A stretch of DNA of 64,000 nt from Paracidovorax wautersii. Lineage in GTDB: Bacteria; Pseudomonadota; Gammaproteobacteria; Burkholderiales; Burkholderiaceae_C. The position numbers were made by a program, and so were the translations under genes. Below the pieces are notes generated by a model. The model was not told the DNA's origin. It saw only the letters and a list, made by a program, of their open reading frames with translations, and did not search any database. Location: assembly GCA_009912175.1 (NCBI GenBank), contig WNDQ01000001.1:124001-188000 (forward strand), written 5' to 3'. This document shows positions 48,368 through 59,100 of this stretch, one piece after another; the first letter of the stretch is position 1; every line of letters starts with the position of its first letter.

Positions 48368-51300
48368 TTGAGCCTCAGCCACCTTCTGGCCCACGTCCAC
48401 GACGCGGCCGCCAACCTGCCACAGACCGATCCGCAGGCCACGGCGCCCTGCGTGCTGTTTCTCTCGGCCAGCGACGGCCGCAGCCGCGCCCGCACCATCT
48501 CCGCCCGCGCGCCCACCTTTGCCCAGGCCTGGCAGCAGGCCGCGCAAAACCTGCAGCGCGTCTTGCGGCAGGACAAAATCATTCCGCAATGGCTGCGTGT
48601 CGACCGTGTTGATCAAACCCAGGCGGTCGACTGGGGCACATTGCGCGCTGCGCTGGGCAAAACCAAACGCAATTACTTTCCTTACGGCATTGCACTAGAC
48701 GCCGAATTCCGCATGGCCATGCTGGAGCCAGAATTGGGTGCCCACGCCTTGCTCTACGACAGCGCGCAAGACGAGTGCACTCCCAATGCGACCAATCTCA
48801 AAACCTATGGTCAGTGGCGTTTTCGACAGCCATTGAGCTGGCCCGTATCTGACACGGTGCCTGCCTGGCTGTTCACCACGCAAGCGCTCTTCAGTGATGG
48901 GCACAGCTTGCATCTCATCGAACAAACCGGTCCCTACCGCGGCTATCGGAAAGTCCCGGACTGGAACGCCAACGCCGTCCAGGCCCTGGTCGTCACCGGC
49001 ACCGACTATCTGGCGCGCCAGGTCAAAACCTCGGGTGAGTACCACTACGGCTGGTTCCCCTGCTTTGACCGGCCCATTCCCACCTACAACGCCCTGCGCC
49101 ACGCCAGCTCGACCTACGCTCTGCTCGAAGGCTGGGAGTTGACACAGGAGCCCCGGCACCGGCAGGCCATCGAGCGCGCCTTGCGCGATCTCACGCGTCG
49201 GCTGATCCAGCCCGCCACGCTGCCCGACGGCAGCACGGCCGCCTTCCTGGTCGACACAGGCGACGAGATCAAGCTCGGCGGCAACGCCGTGTGCATTCTT
49301 GCGCTGGTGAAATACACCGAGTTGACCGGCGACCAACAATACCTGCCCCTGCTCGAACAACTGGCCCTGGGCATCGTGCACATGCAGCAGCCCGACGGCA
49401 GCTTTGTGCACGTGCTGCATCACCCGGGGCTGGGCCTCAAGGAACAGCAGCGCGCCATCTACTACGACGGCGAGGCCGCCTTCGGGCTGATGCGGCTCTA
49501 TGGGCTCACGCGCGACGCGCGCTGGCTGGCCTGTGTCGAGCGCGCCTTCGAACACTTCATCGCCGCCAAGCACTGGAAGGCCCACGACCACTGGCTGAGC
49601 TACTGCGTCAACGAACTGACGCTGTACCGGCCCGACGAGCGCTACTACCAGTTCGGGCTGGACAACGTCCGCGATCACCTGGACTTCGTGCTTGAGCGCA
49701 TCACCACCTTCCCGACGCTGCTTGAACTCATGATGGCTGCGCGCCAGATGATCGAGCGCCTGCAGGCAGACCCCGAGCACAGCCACCTGCTGGACGATTT
49801 CGATCGGGTCAAGTTCCACCAGGCACTCGAGCACCGGGCCCGCTACCTGCTCAACGGCCACTTCTGGCCCGAGCTGGCGATGTTCTTCAAGAACCCCGCG
49901 CGTATCCGCGGCGGTTTCTTCATCCGCCACCACGCCTTCCGTGTGCGCATCGACGATGTGGAGCACTACCTGTCGGGATATGTGGCGTATTGGAAGTATC
50001 TGACACGCAGCACCAAGCCCAACACACCAGTTCCTAACGTAACCGACGCGAAGCCAGTGGTAACCGCCAGCCACCGCGATACAAAACCACGCGCGCGTGC
50101 CGTGATTGCCTGGGGTGGCGACATCAACCTGGGACGCCGTCAACATTACATGACCCCCAAGCCGGGCCAGCCCCATGCGCTGGCCGGTATACCCGCCCTG
50201 CATGCAGCCGACCTCGCCATCGCCAACCTTGAGTGCGTGGTGGCGACCTCCGGAGAGACCGGTGTGGACAAGGGAGAGCAAGGGCCCTTCTATTACCGAG
50301 CCCGGCCGCAGATGCTGCGCGTCCTGCTCGACGCGGGTATCGGGATGGTGAGTGTGGCCAATAACCACGCTGGCGACTACGGACCGGCCGCGCTGGCCGA
50401 ACAGCGCCAGTGGTTGGATGCGGTGGGTGTGGGTCATGCTGGCTCGGGTGACTGCCTGGACGACGCTTTCCGTCCAGCATTGCACCGGGTGGGCGATCTG
50501 GTGGTGGCCCTATTTGCCATCGACACCACCCAAACACAGTTCGCGGCCACCCCTACGCGAGGAGGTATCGCACACCTCGACATCCGTCAGTCCCAACTCT
50601 GGCATGACCGGATGGCCCCTCTCATCGCCGAAGCACGGCAACGTGCCCACCTGGTGCTGGTGGCCGTCCACGCAGGCAAAAACTGGGCTGAAACGCCCAC
50701 CCGCGACGAGATCGCCGCCGCCCACGCGTTGATCGACGCCGGTGCCGACGCCGTGCTAGGTACATCGGCCCATGTAATACAAGGTATCGAGGTTTACAGG
50801 GAGCGCCCGATCATTCATGACGCGGGCAATCTTCTGTTCGACAGCCAGATCAAATACAGCGGCAGCGGCATGTTCCACCTGCATGTCAGTGCACACGGTG
50901 TCGAACAGGTCGATTTCATTCCTATCCATGTCGGTGTGGGCCACAGCGTGCAATTGCAGGACCAGCATGCCCGGGCGGCCGCGGATAGCTACATGCGTCA
51001 ATGCGCGGCACTGGGCGCCGAACTGAAGGCCACGCCCACAGGCGCGTCGCTCATGCTCTCGCCCCCCGAGCGGCCTGCCCCGGTCCAGGCATGGGCTGGC
51101 CCGCCCCCTCTTTTGCGGCCCGAAGTGCTTGATGCGCCGCCACCGATACAACCCCACTGGACGGTGGTACAGGTCCCGACGGATGCGGCTTTCCAGCCCA
51201 TCGAGCTCGGCCCTCTGCGCCTGCTGGGCATGCGGGTACGACCGGCCGCCAGCATCACCCAGCGGCAGATGATCTGGGTTGAAAGCTTCTGGTGCTGCAC

Positions 51301-51637
51301 ACAACCAGTCGCCGACGACCTGCGGCTCGACATCCGTGCTCAATACGAAAACAGCGCGGCCGCGCCGGCATGGGGAGATGGCATGGACCATGAACCGTGC
51401 GACTGGATGTTGCCGACCTCGCGCTGGCAGCCCGGGGTGATCTATCGGGACGAATTCGGTCTGCGGCCGCCAGCGCTCAAGCATCTGCGCAACGGACGCC
51501 TTCAATGGACTGTCGGTGTCATCGCCGCAGACCGCCGCTACGGTCCCGCGTTGCCCCCGCTGCCATTGATCGAAGTCGCCCTACCTGAACGAACAACGCC
51601 GCAGCCCCTTCCTCATCCACTCAAGACGTCCGCATGA
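48368..51637 (+). CDS. Fusion protein: N-terminal alpha/alpha-toroid (epimerase or glycoside-hydrolase-like) domain plus C-terminal CapA-type (PGA_cap) metallophosphatase
   Basis: 1089 aa; [10 protein letters not shown]-like [34 protein letters not shown]...[15 protein letters not shown]; CapA signatures [83 protein letters not shown]. Confidence 0.8.
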   Translation: [1089 protein letters not shown]

Positions 51638-52389
51638 CCGTCCATTCACTTCCCTGGAAGCCGGCCCGGGCACGTGTACTGCGCCGACTGGCCGTCATGG
51701 CCACCTTGGTTTGCGGTCTGAGCGCACCAATCGCCCAAGCCCAGCCGGCCCCCTCCCTGCCCGCCTTCGATCTGAACGTCGTCGTGCTTACGCCGCAGGA
51801 GCAAGCCCGGGACCAGACCAGCCTGGGGGCGATGCGACAGCAAATCGAATGGCTCAACCGCGATTTCGTGACGCAGGATGACCGCCATCTGGTCACGTTC
51901 CGACTCAAGTCCATACAGGACTATGCCTCGATCAAGGACTCGCACTGCGAGCTCGTTTCCTTGGCTCAAAAAGCCTACGACGGCGATGCATGGAACCAAG
52001 CCTTCAATGCCTGCAACGACCCCACCGTGCGCGATCCCAAAGCCATCAACGTCTACATCTACGACAGCTACAGCCCACGGCTCGGCTATGCCGATGCCAA
52101 TTCCCACGGACGCTACAACAAGGCCCGACCCTATATCTTTGTTGACTGGGACCGTCTGCGAACACGCGACCAGAGCCCCTTCGAACATGAGCTGGGCCAT
52201 GCCTTCGGCCTCGGCCATGTCTGTGCCGTCGGCGCCGAACGCGGGAGCGACACCAACATCATGGCCAGTGCAGAGTGCGGTAAGGGCAGCGGTGGCCGCC
52301 GCAATATCGGATTCAACCCAGAACAGGCCGACACCATTCTTCGCAGTGCCATACGCATCGCGCGAATGCTCGCGCAGCCGCCACGTTAA
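51634..52389 (+). CDS. Secreted metzincin-like zinc metalloprotease, otherwise uncharacterised
   Basis: Signal peptide ending APIAQAQ; HELGHAFGLGH (HExxHxxGxxH) and downstream DTNIMAS Met-turn-like segment; start overlaps previous stop region. Confidence 0.75.
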   Translation: MTVHSLPWKPARARVLRRLAVMATLVCGLSAPIAQAQPAPSLPAFDLNVVVLTPQEQARDQTSLGAMRQQIEWLNRDFVTQDDRHLVTFRLKSIQDYASIKDSHCELVSLAQKAYDGDAWNQAFNACNDPTVRDPKAINVYIYDSYSPRLGYADANSHGRYNKARPYIFVDWDRLRTRDQSPFEHELGHAFGLGHVCAVGAERGSDTNIMASAECGKGSGGRRNIGFNPEQADTILRSAIRIARMLAQPPR

Positions 52390-52459
52390 GTCGCACACCG
52401 GCTTCCAAACAACACCTCGGCCCCGGCCCTGATCCAAGCCAGCGGGAGCCATCGCAAGG

Positions 52460-54253
52460 ATGACCATGGAGCAATTGATCACCCGCCTTCGAACACTGTC
52501 GCAACAGGTGACCGATGATGACGATCTCATCCGTCGACTGCTGGAGGAGGGTCTGCCCGAAATCGCATGCGTGGTAGCCCGCAACCGCCTGGAACACGAA
52601 ACACCTTCCGACCCGCAGCACTGGCAGGCTTACCATGCGCTGTTGCTACAGTGTGGCAACACTGCGGCCGCGGAGCGCCTGCGCGAAGCCGTGTCTCCCG
52701 AACAATTCACCGAACGCACCGGACTGGGTTTCTGGAGTGAGTCGATCCGTGCGGCGCAAAACCATGCCGATCGCCTCGCACACACGCTGGACCGCTTGCT
52801 CGCGATCGATCCCTTCCGCTTGGCTGTGCGTGTGTCGACCGTACGGCGTCGCCACCCTCAGCACTACGAGGCTCTGGCCGGTGTGCTGCAAGCCCGCGCC
52901 GCTCGCCTACCTGCGCCGGCGGGCCATGCAGCCATCGCCCTGAAGTTGGCACTGCAGGAGATCGACCCTCATGACGAGAGCCATGACGAGGCACTGCTCG
53001 ACCTGTTCCAGCGCGCGGCCATCGGTGACGTGACAGCGCTGCTACGCAGCGCCTTCTCCCGAAACGTCCTGTTGTTTCAACGGTGGGTGCAGCGACTCAA
53101 CCAGACACCGGAACGGCTGGTATCTATCAGTCCACGAGGCATCTACCGCCTGCTCGCCGTTGCCTACATCCACCTCGACGATGACGCTTACCGTTCCCTG
53201 GCCGAACACATCGTGCACCTGCACGACGCCCAGCCTCCCGGCCAGCTCGATACACCGCTGACCGCCACAGTCGCTATCGCCCAGCGTTTTCTTGCCCGGC
53301 GCCAGACACCAGCGCCTGCTGGCCCATTTCCGATTGGCACGCGAGGCGACCGCCCCCTGCGTATCGCTATCGCGGTTTCCGGGCAATTGCGAGCGTATCG
53401 CGAGGTGTTTCCAAGCTGGCGCCACCTGGGACTGGATGGACACCAAGTCGACTATTACGTCCACACCTGGAAAAGCATCGGCTGGCGCTTTCCCAACGCC
53501 ATTACCGGCAATGCAGTCGACCGCGTGTTTGGGCATGCACCATTTGTGCAGGCCTACATCAAGGCTGGTCTGCTCTACGGTATCGAGGCCATGCGCAAGG
53601 CGTACCCCACCTTCCTGGGATCACTCGAACGCAGCGCAGCCGATGTGACCGTGGCCGATGTCCAGGCCGTCTACGGTTCTGACGCACGCGTGTACATCGA
53701 GGCAGAAGATCCCACGCGCTTTCCCGATGACCCCAAAAACCAGCACAAGATGTTCTACAAGATCGACCAAGCCCAGCGCATGGTCGAAGAATCGGGCGTC
53801 TCCTATGACCTTGTGATCCGCCTGCGCGGTGACCGCTCATTTCGTCCGCCGAGAACACCGCCCGACTACCAGGCAATGTGGCACCAGAGCCAGGCCGATC
53901 AGGTCCTGTTCGGAGAACCAGCTCGCATCGCCAACGAGCTTTATGTGGACGACCAGTTCGCCATCGGCACGCCCGAGGTGATGCGAGCCTACGCCAGCAC
54001 GGCACAGTTGCAACAGCAGGCCGTCCAGGAGCGCTGGCATGGCTTCACTCCTCAGCTTGCGCCACACCTCACCTTGGCCTACGCCCTGTTTTTCCAGGGC
54101 ATCCGTGTGCGCGAGGCGCTGGGTGTGCGCCCCGGCCCCATCCGGGGCCAGCACCTCATGAGCCGACAGGAGATTCACGAGGCGCTGCTGCACGACATGC
54201 CTGGCGGCCCCCGCAGCGAGATGGACCGGCTTTTCCTGGAGGCCGTTGCATGA
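52460..54253 (+). CDS. Putative glycosyltransferase-like protein, SGQLR type, copy 1
   Basis: 597 aa; helical N-terminal domain; RIAIAVSGQLRAYREVFPSW, VDYYVHTWKSIG, YDLVIRLRGD, ELYVDDQFAIGTPE. Confidence 0.65.
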   Translation: MTMEQLITRLRTLSQQVTDDDDLIRRLLEEGLPEIACVVARNRLEHETPSDPQHWQAYHALLLQCGNTAAAERLREAVSPEQFTERTGLGFWSESIRAAQNHADRLAHTLDRLLAIDPFRLAVRVSTVRRRHPQHYEALAGVLQARAARLPAPAGHAAIALKLALQEIDPHDESHDEALLDLFQRAAIGDVTALLRSAFSRNVLLFQRWVQRLNQTPERLVSISPRGIYRLLAVAYIHLDDDAYRSLAEHIVHLHDAQPPGQLDTPLTATVAIAQRFLARRQTPAPAGPFPIGTRGDRPLRIAIAVSGQLRAYREVFPSWRHLGLDGHQVDYYVHTWKSIGWRFPNAITGNAVDRVFGHAPFVQAYIKAGLLYGIEAMRKAYPTFLGSLERSAADVTVADVQAVYGSDARVYIEAEDPTRFPDDPKNQHKMFYKIDQAQRMVEESGVSYDLVIRLRGDRSFRPPRTPPDYQAMWHQSQADQVLFGEPARIANELYVDDQFAIGTPEVMRAYASTAQLQQQAVQERWHGFTPQLAPHLTLAYALFFQGIRVREALGVRPGPIRGQHLMSRQEIHEALLHDMPGGPRSEMDRLFLEAVA

Positions 54254-56055
54254 CCGTGGTCCGGCCAGCCAACCCCGCTTTGGACCTGGACACCCTGCAA
54301 GCGTTGCTCGCGCATTGCGTGGATGCACACGGGCGGCTCGATGTGGCCCGATTGCTGCAGCAGGGCCTGCCCGAAATCGCCCTGCTGGTGACCCGCCAGT
54401 CCATGGCCCGGCAACAGCCCCCCAACCCACCCGACTGGCTGGCCCATTACCGCCTGCTGCAGCAGGTCACCGATCATGGTGCGGCGCTCCGGCTGTGGGC
54501 TGATATGGACGTCGAGGCCACCCAGAAGGCCACGGGCCTGGACTACTGGAACGAGGCCGTCTGGACCGCCGCGCTGCACACCGAGCGGCTCACCCAGCTC
54601 GTGCAGGAACTCATGGACCGCGACAGCTGGCGGTTCGCGGTGCGGCTCGCGCAGTTCCGCAACGGCAACGGCGGGCTTTTTTTTCCGCTGGCCAACGTCA
54701 TCGCCGACGCGCTCCAGCGCAAGCCCCTGCCGCCCAATGGCCTGAGTGCGCTGGCCTGGAACCTGGTGCTGCAGCGCTGCGATCCGGCCGTGCCGACCTG
54801 GTTCGAACCGATGCAGCGCATGCTGGAGCGGCGCAAGCTGGTCGACATCAGCAGCCTCTTGCGCACGTCCCTGCCCGCCAATGCGCCGCTGTTCCGCCAG
54901 TTCGCGCTGCGCATGCTGGCGCAGGACCCGGCCGTCCATCCGCTCGGCCCACGCGCCACCTTCCATTTCCTGGTGCTGTCCTACGCCCTGCTGGAGCCCC
55001 AGGTCTACCGCGCGGTCTGTGCACGCGTGCTGACATGGGCCGGCGCCGTCCCGACGATCGACCGCCAGACGCCCGAGGGCGCCAGTGTTCTGGTGGCACG
55101 CAACCACCTGCAGCGCTATCGCCTGGCGCAATCGCAATCGGCCCAACCGTCGCCCGGCCGCCTGCGCATTGCGCTGTGTGTCTCGGGCCAGTTGCGCGGC
55201 TATCAGGACGCCTTCAAGACCTGGGAACACCTGCAATTGCAGGACCACGACGTGCACATCCACGTGCACACCTGGCGCAGCGTAGGGCTGTCGGTTCCAG
55301 TGGCGTCTTCGCGCAAGGGCGTGGACCGCGCGTTCACCCACCCCCCGTTCGTGCGCGCCTTCATCCGGGCGGGCCAGCGGTACGGCGATGAGGCCCTGAA
55401 CCGGGCCTATCCGAAGTTCATGGCCGCGCTGGCCTGGGGCGCCACCGTCACGCCCGACGACCTGCGCGCCGTCTATGGCCCCGACACGCACGTCGGCATC
55501 GAGGAGGACGACCTGCCCGAGTTCGCAGGCGACACCACGCACCAGCACAAGATGTTCCACAAGATCCTCATGGCCCACCGGCTGGCGGCGCAATCACCCC
55601 AGCCCTACGACCTGATGATCCGCATCCGCCCCGATCTGTCGCTGCTGCCGCCCGAACAGCCCATCGACTGGCACGCGATCTACAGGGCATGCGTTGACAA
55701 CCAGACGATCTACACCGGGCCTCTGCATCTGGTCAACAACCTGTTCGTCGACGACCGGATCGCCATCGGCTCGCCCGCGTCCATGCTGCGCTATGCCGAA
55801 ACCCGCCGCGCCCAGAAACAGGCCGACGAGGAGCGCTGGTACGGCTTTCCGCGCGGCCTGCAATGGCACCGGTCGCTCGCCTATTCCTTGTTCTTCCAGG
55901 GGCTGCAGGCCGTCGATCTGCCGGGCATCCTGCCCGGCCCGCTGGTTGGCGCGCGCACCTGGGACCGCGACCAGATCCGCGAGGCCCTGGCGGCCGACCT
56001 GCCCCACGGCCCGGTCACCGACATGGACCGGCTGCTGACCCAGGCCCTGCAATGA
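54250..56055 (+). CDS. Putative glycosyltransferase-like protein, SGQLR type, copy 2 (tandem paralog)
   Basis: 601 aa; ATGA overlap with copy 1; RIALCVSGQLRGYQDAFKTW, VHIHVHTWRSVG, YDLMIRIRPDLSL, NLFVDDRIAIGSPA. Confidence 0.65.
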   Translation: MTVVRPANPALDLDTLQALLAHCVDAHGRLDVARLLQQGLPEIALLVTRQSMARQQPPNPPDWLAHYRLLQQVTDHGAALRLWADMDVEATQKATGLDYWNEAVWTAALHTERLTQLVQELMDRDSWRFAVRLAQFRNGNGGLFFPLANVIADALQRKPLPPNGLSALAWNLVLQRCDPAVPTWFEPMQRMLERRKLVDISSLLRTSLPANAPLFRQFALRMLAQDPAVHPLGPRATFHFLVLSYALLEPQVYRAVCARVLTWAGAVPTIDRQTPEGASVLVARNHLQRYRLAQSQSAQPSPGRLRIALCVSGQLRGYQDAFKTWEHLQLQDHDVHIHVHTWRSVGLSVPVASSRKGVDRAFTHPPFVRAFIRAGQRYGDEALNRAYPKFMAALAWGATVTPDDLRAVYGPDTHVGIEEDDLPEFAGDTTHQHKMFHKILMAHRLAAQSPQPYDLMIRIRPDLSLLPPEQPIDWHAIYRACVDNQTIYTGPLHLVNNLFVDDRIAIGSPASMLRYAETRRAQKQADEERWYGFPRGLQWHRSLAYSLFFQGLQAVDLPGILPGPLVGARTWDRDQIREALAADLPHGPVTDMDRLLTQALQ

Positions 56056-56086
56056 CCCCATTCCCCTTCAACGAGAGCACCTTCCT

Positions 56087-56461
56087 ATGAAACGCCTGAT
56101 CGTCGATCTCGACCACACCCTGTGCGTCGCCCGCGACCGGGACTACGCCAACGCCGAGCCCCGCGCGGACGTCATCGCGCAACTGCGCACCTACCACGCC
56201 CAGGGTTTCGAGATCGCCATCCACACCAGCCGCAACGTGCGCACCTACGCGGGCAACGTGGGCAAGATCAATGCGCACACGCTGCCCGTCATCCTCGACT
56301 GGCTGGCGCGCCACGACGTGCCCTACGACGAGATCCACGTCGGCAAGCCCTGGTGCGGCGACGACGGTTTCTACATCGACGACCGGGCCGTGCGCCCCTC
56401 GGAATTCGTGCGCCACAGCTACGAGGAAATCGTGCAACTTCTGGAGCGAGAACAATCATGA
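56087..56461 (+). CDS. HAD-like phosphatase (capsule-biosynthesis type)
   Basis: 124 aa; MKRLIVDLDHTLCVA (DxDxT), ...HTSRNVRTYAGN..., WCGDDGFYIDDRAV. Confidence 0.8.
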   Translation: MKRLIVDLDHTLCVARDRDYANAEPRADVIAQLRTYHAQGFEIAIHTSRNVRTYAGNVGKINAHTLPVILDWLARHDVPYDEIHVGKPWCGDDGFYIDDRAVRPSEFVRHSYEEIVQLLEREQS

Positions 56462-58674
56462 TCCTCCTGACCTCCGCCGCCTACGTCGACCCGGAACTGC
56501 AATCCGAGTTCGGGCGCCTGCCGCCCGCCTTTCTGCCCGTCGGAAACCAGCGGCTGTTTCAGCGGCAAGCCGACATGCTGCGCACCACCTTCCCCGGCGA
56601 GCCCATCTACCTGTCCCTGCCCGAGAGCTACACGATCGCGCGGCGCGACGCCGACACGCTGGCGCGGCTGGACGTCCAGGTGGTCAAGGTCCCCGACGGC
56701 CTGAGCCTGGCGGCCTCGGTGCTGTACGCCATCAACCGCATCGGCGACTACAGCGCGGGCGTGCGCATCCTGCACGGCGACACGCTGGTCTCGGGCTTCG
56801 ACACCGCCTGGGACTGCGTGGCCATGGCCCAGTCCTCGGACGACTACAACTGGTATGTCGAGAGCCACAGCGGGGTCGTTCCCAGCATCTGGTGCGGCTA
56901 CTTCGCCTTCGGCTCCATCGACCTGCTCACCAAGTGCCTCGCCGGCGCGCACAACGCCTTTGAAAAAGCCGTGAACGACTACGACGCCGCGCAAGCGCTG
57001 CTGCGCATCCGGCCCAGCCATTGGCTGGACTTCGGCCACGTCAACACCTTCTACCGCTCGCGCGCGCGCATGACCACGCAGCGCGTCTTCAACGACTTGC
57101 GCATCCAGAACCACCGTGTCCACAAGACAGGCACACCACCCGCCAAGATCCAGGCCGAAGCGCTCTGGTTCGACGCGCTGCCGCCCACCTTGCGTATCTA
57201 TGTTCCCCAACTGCTGGCGCGCAACATCGAAGACGGCAAGGCCAGCTACGAGCTGGAATACCTGTGCCTGGCGCCGCTCAACGAGCTGTATGTGCACGGG
57301 CTGAATTCACCGGGCTTCTGGCACCGCCTGTTCCGGCATCTGGCGGACTGGTTCCAGGCCAGCCAGCAGGCCATGGACTGGCGCCAGGTGGACATCGAGT
57401 CGGTGCGGGCCGACGTCAACGGCATGCTGGCCGACAAGACGCGCGAGCGGCTGGGCCAGTACCTGGCATCCGTGGGCCTGAACGATGCCGGCCCGACCTC
57501 ACTCAACGGTGCACCCCTGCCGCCCCTGGCCACCATCGTCGAGCGCTGCCTGGCCGAGGCCGCGAAAGTGCCGGTGGTGCTGGGCGTGCTGCACGGCGAC
57601 CTGTGCTTCAGCAACATCCTGTTCGACACGCGCGCCGACCAGATCAAGCTGATCGACCCGCGCGGCCTGAACTACAAGGGCGAACAGCGTCTGTACGGCG
57701 ACCTGCGCTACGACCTGGCCAAGCTCACGCACTCGGTGATCGGGCTCTACGACTACCTGATCGCCGACGCGTTCTCCATCGACGACGGCGCGGGCCTGGA
57801 CTTTGCGCTGCAGATCCATGCCGACGACAACGTCGAGGTCATCGGCACGCACTTCCTGGACCAGCGCATGCTGGACGGCATCACGCCCCGCCAGATCCTG
57901 CCCATCACCGTCCTGCTGTTTCTGTCGATGCTCCCGCTGCACAGCGACGCCCCCCGGCGCCAGCGCGCCATGCTGGCCAATGCGCTGCGCCTCTACCGCC
58001 TGCCGCTGCATGGCCAGACGGTTTTTCATCAGATGCTGAACTCGTTCGCGCACTACTTCGAGGACGACCTGTTCCTCTTCATCGTCCGCCAGGACCATGC
58101 CGCGCGCGACTTCGTCGCCGACGAGGCGACGGCGCTGGGCATCGCGCGTTTCGAGATCGTGGAGATCGCAGGCGACACCCTCGGCCAGGCCGACACGGTC
58201 GCGCGCGGCCTGCACCTGCACGAAGGCGCGGTCGACGAGCCGCTCTACATCTTCAACATCGACACGCTCCGCCCACGCTTTCGCAAGTCGGACAAGGCCA
58301 TCGGCAGCCAGGGCTATCTGGAGGTCTTCGAGGCCGAGGGCGAGCACTGGTCCTTTGTCGAGCCCGGACCCGGCCACACGGTCCTGCGCACGACGGAGAA
58401 GGAACGCATCTCCAACCTCTGCAGCGACGGCCTGTACCAGTTCGCATCGCGCGTCGTGTTCGAGCAGGCGTTCGAGCACCAGGTGACGAACCACCTGCTC
58501 ACGCGCAACGAGTACTACATCGCGCCCGCCTACAACGCGTTGATCGCGCGCGGCGACCGCATCCTGTACGAAAAGATCGACCGCAACGACGTGCTGTTCT
58601 GCGGCACGCCTGACGAATACAACGCGCTGCTGGCCATGCCCGTGGACGAATTCGCCCGGCGCGTGGCTGCCTGA
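56458..58674 (+). CDS. Three-module protein: nucleotidyltransferase-like / APH-ChoK-type kinase-like / second nucleotidyltransferase-like
   Basis: N-terminal FLPVGNQRLFQRQADML and LHGDTLVSG; central HGDLCFSNILFDTRADQIKLIDPRG kinase-fold signature; C-terminal LFIVRQDHAARDFV...IFNIDTLRP. Confidence 0.65.
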   Translation: MILLTSAAYVDPELQSEFGRLPPAFLPVGNQRLFQRQADMLRTTFPGEPIYLSLPESYTIARRDADTLARLDVQVVKVPDGLSLAASVLYAINRIGDYSAGVRILHGDTLVSGFDTAWDCVAMAQSSDDYNWYVESHSGVVPSIWCGYFAFGSIDLLTKCLAGAHNAFEKAVNDYDAAQALLRIRPSHWLDFGHVNTFYRSRARMTTQRVFNDLRIQNHRVHKTGTPPAKIQAEALWFDALPPTLRIYVPQLLARNIEDGKASYELEYLCLAPLNELYVHGLNSPGFWHRLFRHLADWFQASQQAMDWRQVDIESVRADVNGMLADKTRERLGQYLASVGLNDAGPTSLNGAPLPPLATIVERCLAEAAKVPVVLGVLHGDLCFSNILFDTRADQIKLIDPRGLNYKGEQRLYGDLRYDLAKLTHSVIGLYDYLIADAFSIDDGAGLDFALQIHADDNVEVIGTHFLDQRMLDGITPRQILPITVLLFLSMLPLHSDAPRRQRAMLANALRLYRLPLHGQTVFHQMLNSFAHYFEDDLFLFIVRQDHAARDFVADEATALGIARFEIVEIAGDTLGQADTVARGLHLHEGAVDEPLYIFNIDTLRPRFRKSDKAIGSQGYLEVFEAEGEHWSFVEPGPGHTVLRTTEKERISNLCSDGLYQFASRVVFEQAFEHQVTNHLLTRNEYYIAPAYNALIARGDRILYEKIDRNDVLFCGTPDEYNALLAMPVDEFARRVAA

Positions 58675-58680
58675 GTCCGG

Positions 58681-59100
58681 TCAGGACACGGCGGGCGGCT
58701 TCGGGATAGGCCGGGGCCGGCCCTGCTCGTCGATGGCGACGTAGGTCAGTTGAGCCTCGGTCACCTTGATGACGCGGCCCTGGTCGTGCATGCGCTCGGC
58801 GAAGACCTCGATACGCACGGTGATGGAGGTGCGGCCGATGCGTTCGACATGGCCGTAGAAGGACAGCAGGTCGCCCACGCGCACGGGTTGCTTGAAGACG
58901 AACTCGTTAACCGCAACGGTGGCAAAACGCCCACCGGTGTAGCGCGCCGGAATGACCGAGCCGGCCAGATCGACCTGGGCCATGACCCAGCCGCCAAAGA
59001 TGTCCCCATTGGCGTTGCAGTCGCCCGGCATGGGGATGACCTTGAGCACCAGCTCCTTGTCGGTGGGCAGTTCGGTGAGCATGTCGTGGGTGTAGACCAT
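58681..59100 (-). CDS. Acyl-CoA thioesterase (YciA-like hotdog fold)
   Basis: IPMPGDCNANGDIFGGWVMAQVDLAGSVIPARYTGGRFATVAVNEFVFKQPVRVGDLLSFYGHVERIGRTSI. Confidence 0.94.
   Translation of the reverse strand: MVYTHDMLTELPTDKELVLKVIPMPGDCNANGDIFGGWVMAQVDLAGSVIPARYTGGRFATVAVNEFVFKQPVRVGDLLSFYGHVERIGRTSITVRIEVFAERMHDQGRVIKVTEAQLTYVAIDEQGRPRPIPKPPAVS

Follow-up and report, generated by a model that had tools for sequence, protein, structure and literature searches.

A GtfC-family gene cassette of Paracidovorax wautersii with a possible role in the decoration of adhesin repeats

Analysis of a 64,000-nucleotide stretch of Paracidovorax wautersii DNA (assembly GCA_009912175.1, contig WNDQ01000001.1, positions 124,001 to 188,000; referred to here as the window) reveals a cassette of six genes, g1 to g6, at window positions 48368–58674. 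They code for a protein in which a GtfC-family domain (g1N) is fused to a CapA-type domain, a metzincin, two paralogs sharing an SGQLR motif, a HAD phosphatase, and a kinase joined to a damaged nucleotidyltransferase (NTase). We propose, with a probability of about one half, that this cassette represents a variant form of the GtfC-type systems, in which groups are covalently attached to the Asp-X dipeptide repeats of surface adhesins. The namesake of these systems is Staphylococcus aureus GtfC; the SD-repeat region of Pls is fully glycosylated only when both this protein and GtfD are present (PMC5230774).

The GtfC family and its linkage to repeat adhesins

GtfC is a 538-residue protein encoded directly downstream of pls, and is not predicted as a glycosyltransferase by CAZy (PMC5230774). 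By sequence comparison g1N is a member of the same family, an identity established through the published primers and not through the SACOL0051 sequence. The GtfC-F primer matches one 538-residue staphylococcal g1N homologue without mismatch, and GtfC-R matches with three mismatches in the expected orientation; all three of the staphylococcal homologues examined are exactly 538 residues long, and it is this length together with the primer match that makes the assignment. The window domain is 38% identical over 482 residues to a 538-residue S. haemolyticus GtfC homologue and 65% identical to a standalone Variovorax protein, and it retains all 66 columns that are invariant across 12 divergent family members. 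A family profile (A3) matches g1N with E=2e-262, although the window supplies one of its 12 rows. The TTG start of g1 is consistent with the N-termini of homologues. There is no Pfam model for the family; its profile has no significant match among PDB sequences, and a search of viral contigs with g1N found none. An AlphaFold2 (AF2) model built from four sequences is weak (predicted local distance difference test score, pLDDT, 60.7) and serves as a fold hint only; it resembles cellobiose 2-epimerase and GH76.

Homologues of g1N are present in 54 plasmid records, and the family spans Firmicutes and Proteobacteria. There are several features of its genomic setting. First, the genes adjoin those of surface proteins: S. 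haemolyticus pls, an LPXTG protein in Listeria, the Enterococcus pAdhesive_17 protein, BapA/LapF with a type I secretion system (T1SS) in Agrobacterium, repeat proteins with a T1SS in Klebsiella and Nitratireductor, and a BapA-prefix protein in Sulfitobacter. Second, the long repeats of these surface proteins are of the (Asp-Ala)n or (Asp-Ser)n type, and in one protein of the sampled locus L094 of the (Asp-Gly)n type, with runs of 50 to 632 residues. Third, among 399 genomes of the phylum, (Asp-X)15 runs are found in eight of the 14 with g1N versus 20 of the 385 without it (Fisher p = 5e-7), a value that ignores kinship among genomes that are partly related. Most of the 20 runs in genomes lacking g1N are poly-D, D-H, D-R, D-K or D-T, and two contain D-A/T or D-G; for small-residue (Asp-X) repeats the association with g1N has a Fisher p of 9e-12, the division into small-residue and any repeats having been defined after the repeat types were seen. 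Finally, many (DA)n runs are present in all six Variovorax genomes or records carrying g1N or its cassette, and there are no D[ASG]8+ runs in any of the 40 SGQLR loci L013–L052.

Two further loci extend the range of settings. An autotransporter with (Gly-Asp)n repeats lies directly before a lone GtfC-family gene (L094:5784-10735), and the association thus reaches beyond T1SS and LPXTG proteins. On Sulfitobacter plasmid pDSM110093_a (L062), condensation-domain proteins on one side and a type I polyketide synthase on the other flank a (DA)n protein with a BapA prefix and a GtfC–Mur ligase fusion.

Cassette layout and the exchange of GtfC partners

The features of the cassette, all on the + strand, are as follows.

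48368–50062, +: g1 residues 1–565, GtfC-family domain (g1N), (alpha/alpha)6-barrel-like from homology and a low-confidence AF2 model
50105–50842, +: g1 residues 580–825, CapA/PGA_cap metallophosphatase-like domain (PF09587, E=7.6e-57)
50843–51634, +: g1 C-terminal tail, residues 826–1089, with matches in g1N–CapA–Mur ligase fusions
51634–52389, +: g2, predicted secreted metzincin-like zinc metalloprotease (HExxHxxGxxH at 52186–52218, NIMAS Met-turn)
52460–54253, +: g3, predicted SGQLR transferase of GT-A fold with an N-terminal helical region (AF2 of residues 301–597, Foldseek)
54250–56055, +: g4, paralog of g3 (38% identity)
56087–56461, +: g5, HAD phosphatase of the EcbF-BcbF family (TIGR01689, 198 bits, cut-off 162)
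56458–57993, +: g6 N-terminal part, a degenerate NTase-like domain plus an APH-type kinase (together NK; APH/TCAD9 and NTP_transf matches below cut-off)
57994–58674, +: g6 C-terminal NTase without its N-terminal P-loop, GxSxRF...PKY (alignment with 19 relatives, DNA of four Variovorax loci)

An earlier reading of this DNA from its letters alone (the original prediction) had described six co-directional genes with short or overlapping junctions, and we find them so: all six open reading frames (ORFs) are present at the same coordinates and are open, and ATGA-type overlaps are intact at 51634/51637, 54250/54253 and 56458/56461. The gaps between g2 and g3 and between g4 and g5 are about 70 and 31 nucleotides, and the downstream neighbor of g6 (58681–59100) is convergent. 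The motifs it listed are likewise in place (HELGHAFGLGH in g2; SGQLR at residue 307 of g3 and 312 of g4, with HTW and RLRGD/RIRPD; DLDHT at residue 7 of g5; HGD at residue 379 of g6).

The CapA-type half of g1 is a strong match to PGA_cap (193 bits against a cut-off of 27), and its nearest named relatives are the lasso-peptide epimerase MslH (NF038314) and PDB 8gq9, a poly-gamma-glutamate synthesis protein (E=2.5e-16); the tail that follows it is matched in the sampled loci L083, L084 and L087. The original prediction read CapA as pointing to poly-gamma-glutamate or a capsule, an indication that loses its force with the finding that the other half of the fusion belongs to a family tied to Asp-X dipeptide-repeat adhesins. 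A poly-gamma-glutamate-like polymer made by CapA with a novel polymerase would account for this domain and for the g1N–CapA–Mur ligase triple fusions found elsewhere, but is highly improbable given the GtfC-family fusion partner, the sugar-nucleotide-like character of the linked SGQLR module, and the lack of a CapB/CapC-type ligase among the six genes (by library scan; a genome-wide search was not made).

The g1N domain is associated with a series of exchangeable partners. It is fused or adjacent to a Mur ligase in Agrobacterium, Sulfitobacter, Nitratireductor, Staphylococcus and several further genomes, joined to GT4 in Klebsiella and L082, and fused to an ATP-grasp domain of the YheC/D–RimK/TTL kind in L086, L088 and L090, which suggests, from domain content, amino-acid ligation to repeat proteins. 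CapA stands beside g1N in Acinetobacter baumannii, and g1N, CapA and Mur ligase form one chain of 1611–1626 residues in L083, L084 and L127. Both GT4 fusions accompany almost pure Asp-Ser repeats; Mur ligases occur mostly with Asp-Ala, with L089 (Asp-Ser) as the exception. The exchange is particularly clear in two Variovorax records whose flanks and g1N are each 95% identical, one having the SGQLR/HAD/NK/NTase module and the other a Mur ligase. A secreted zinc protease is also a recurrent partner, as the original prediction of a dedicated secreted protease would have it: 12 loci combine the cassette with a HExxH...E metalloprotease, whose place is taken by a metzincin in the window and in A. 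baumannii. The g2 product has a signal-like N-terminus together with its zinc-binding motif, though all of its Pfam matches fall below cut-off, and within PLSDB its relatives occur only in the A. baumannii adhesin/GtfC/CapA locus (36% identity).

In that locus (CP040041.1 312675-334976; L121, L060) genes for a GtfC-family protein and a CapA protein come after that of a large bap-like T1SS adhesin, and a metzincin gene related to g2 runs convergently; the literature searched yielded no account of this linkage. It resembles the window in bringing together g1N, CapA and a g2-type metzincin, but the genes are separate, a large adhesin is adjacent, and SGQLR, HAD, kinase and NTase are absent. The Variovorax cassettes (L004/L007, L008, L010, L011) are the second relative, in the order SGQLR – metalloprotease – HAD – NK – NTase – g1N. 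Their products are similar to those of the window (g1N 64–66% identity, HAD 69%, NK/NTase about 60%, SGQLR 35–37% over most of the protein), but g1N lacks CapA, the NTase is intact and separate, there is a single SGQLR gene, no similarity between the metalloprotease and g2 was detected, and there is an extra aspartyl-hydroxylase-like gene. The window thus joins g1N + CapA + metzincin (the A. baumannii bap form) with g1N + SGQLR/HAD/NK/NTase (the Variovorax form). These two sub-modules are separately conserved and recur across genomes, so that the lack of co-conservation which would have told against the original prediction was not observed, although the exact six-gene set is seen in the window only. 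Compared with Pls GtfC/GtfD, the window shares a GtfC homologue, the constant partner beside Asp/Ser/Ala-repeat adhesins, but g1N is fused to CapA, there is neither a GtfD-like GT4 nor an adjacent repeat adhesin, and two GT-A enzymes and a donor module are present instead.

The additional gene of the Variovorax cassettes, which it precedes (L004:13915-14661, L008–L011, L063), is aspartyl/asparaginyl beta-hydroxylase-like, and its product might hydroxylate Asp in the (DA)n repeats. As a common cassette partner it was rejected, being confined to Variovorax.

The SGQLR transferases and the deletion in the donor module

The g3 and g4 proteins belong to no Pfam or NCBIfam family, and an SGQLR profile has no significant match among PDB sequences. 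Residues 301–597 of g3 gave a good AF2 model (43 sequences, pLDDT 94.9, predicted template modelling score 0.90), whose best Foldseek matches in the PDB are GT6 and LgtC (E ~1e-4, probability 1.00, TM 0.34–0.43). We are confident from the model that the SGQLR proteins have a GT-A fold, in agreement with their original description as glycosyltransferase-like. Eleven columns are invariant in the family, including the SGQ-R and RxRxD residues and a later Asp. The SGQLR protein likely transfers a group that the linked enzymes have activated. For NK and the NTase, a LicA/LicC-like activation of choline or phosphocholine is one candidate that was considered.

Searching plasmids by tblastn and scanning contigs species-wide gave 48 related SGQLR loci; a contig scan with the g3/g4 pair alone yielded no match and a broader alignment yielded 45 loci, while a search of phages with g4 found none. 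SGQLR genes stand beside HAD, NTase-like/kinase and NTase genes in Variovorax, Phaeobacter, Paenibacillus, Methylovulum, a Verrucomicrobiales metagenome-assembled genome (MAG), Thiomicrorhabdus and Pseudomonas putida. In Acetobacteraceae MAGs (L016:877-10885, L017, L023:7151-12949), ORFs of 1040–1933 residues contain SGQLR domains, as tandem genes or possibly intrachain repeats.

These neighborhoods bear on a different interpretation, in which the cassette decorates a capsule or exopolysaccharide (EPS): HAD, kinase and NTase would make an activated substituent, SGQLR would transfer it to a polysaccharide, and g1N–CapA would modify the same polymer. The module does recur in such clusters. The Phaeobacter pP78_d locus includes tagD, a TagF-like gene, glf and an ABC exporter, the Tropicibacter locus is a polysaccharide cluster, Thiomicrorhabdus has Wzy_C and Poly_export, and P. 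putida has Poly_export; the Paenibacillus locus is not of this kind, the neighbors scanned being pectate lyase and DctP/DctM transporters. Moreover, g5 scores above the curated cut-off for the EcbF-BcbF capsule family, and the modelled g1N core may resemble carbohydrate epimerases and GH76. However, the locus is not a canonical capsule locus: no Wzx/Wzy, polymerase, flippase or ABC exporter is found among the six genes (the flanking ORFs were read without a library scan), g1N is of the adhesin-linked GtfC family, and it was not found in SGQLR loci outside Variovorax. We therefore consider capsule or EPS decoration unlikely, though not strongly so, and a repeat protein more likely than capsule as the decorated polymer. 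The proposal of a non-canonical surface-polymer decoration system with a secreted protease is supported through the GT-A fold, the module's place in capsule/EPS loci and the protease partner, and not in its use of CapA as a pointer to capsule.

NK is a separate gene of about 520 codons in Variovorax, where APH passes its cut-off. The C-terminal NTase (g6 C-terminus versus PDB 4evw, E = 4.5e-50) is its own ORF with an intact P-loop in 19 of 19 aligned relatives, starting VIPMxGxSxRFxxAGYxxPKY-like. For the NTase-like N-domain, 20 rows were aligned; the 14 of them that were displayed have no canonical GxGxR...PK loop, and the motif is also absent from the 20-row consensus. Relative to four Variovorax loci, g6 is short of about 90 nucleotides at 57993/57994, in frame, comprising the P-loop and the preceding stop, and this loss fused the kinase gene to the residual NTase. 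The alignments indicate that the triple fusion is a deletion product and not an ancestral architecture, and the NTase–kinase–NTase enzyme of the original prediction is better read as a scar. With no second NTase copy in the genome, synthesis of the donor is probably impaired. A possible alternative to true deletion is that the junction was misassembled.

Role of the cassette and its significance

The decoration of adhesin repeats by the cassette has to be weighed against its genomic surroundings. The assembly contains no exact (Asp-X) run of at least six codons, only isolated three-mismatch matches, and the best score for an LssB-family T1SS, 363 bits, falls short of the cut-off of 693. The CapA-type loci L083, L084 and L127 lack adjacent long Asp-X repeats, though their genomes have repeats elsewhere, and the Asp-X run of A. 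baumannii is just 16 residues long. SGQLR loci are for the most part located in polysaccharide or other clusters that lack g1N, and with the NTase lesion the SGQLR branch may be dead. All of these points, like the kinship within the co-occurrence sample, count against the proposal. Glu-X repeats are also absent from the assembly. The assembly consists of 102 contigs, from which a repeat gene may have been lost, and the cassette has probably been orphaned or is in decay, or else it acts on another substrate or surface protein. The NTase scar is consistent with an orphaned cassette; the CapA-type loci without long adjacent repeats and the short A. baumannii run make another surface protein a possible substrate.

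At the extreme, the cassette could be a decayed, non-functional island, acquired horizontally, whose adhesin and exporter were lost or never gained and in which the P-loop deletion is a step of decay. Its G+C is 0.62–0.65 across most of its left part against up to 0.71 in the flanks; g3 is absent from the 200 other genomes of the family (201 searched) and the SGQLR profile has no other match among 350 genomes of the order, absences that suggest horizontal acquisition. The in-frame loss and the missing adhesin and T1SS fit as well. However, all six ORFs remain open, the overlaps and the 66 invariant g1N residues have been kept, and short-read assemblies can lose repeat genes, so that we judge complete decay distinctly unlikely.

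In the proposed decoration of adhesin repeats, g1N would be the constant, adhesin-facing component and its partner enzymes would set which group is attached. HAD phosphatase, kinase and C-terminal NTase would make a nucleotide-activated donor for the two SGQLR transferases, the fused CapA domain would be a further partner, and at the cell surface the adhesin would be the target of the exported metalloprotease. The family memberships, linkage, fold and deletion are established here, and a role in glycosylation has been demonstrated for S. aureus GtfC only (PMC5230774); we infer the substrate, donor, order of steps and role of the protease. The glycosylation of SD repeats by SdgA/SdgB (PMC3794999, PMC8561734) likewise modifies adhesin dipeptide repeats, but is an analogue only, using glycosyltransferases of another kind and no g1N.

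More tentatively, GtfC-type cassettes could represent a widespread, modular means of coating the Asp-dipeptide repeats of adhesins, with a chemistry that changes with the partner: sugars from GT4, amide-linked amino acids from a Mur ligase or an ATP-grasp enzyme, CapA-type reactions, or nucleotide-activated groups transferred by SGQLR proteins. A dedicated secreted metalloprotease would belong to the set, and the window would then be an undescribed CapA + SGQLR form. Through this linkage GtfC becomes one member of a family that crosses phyla and is tied to (Asp-Ala/Ser/Gly)n repeats of adhesins. Paracoccus BapA has repeats of this class, and a gel anomaly reported for it left post-translational modification open (PMC5588039). 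Specific chemistries can be predicted from the partner swaps, in which GT4 occurs with Ser-Asp and the ligases for the most part with Asp-Ala, and the question of how giant biofilm adhesins are modified becomes testable. The previously unannotated SGQLR GT-A family, in turn, gains a predicted fold and a genomic context.

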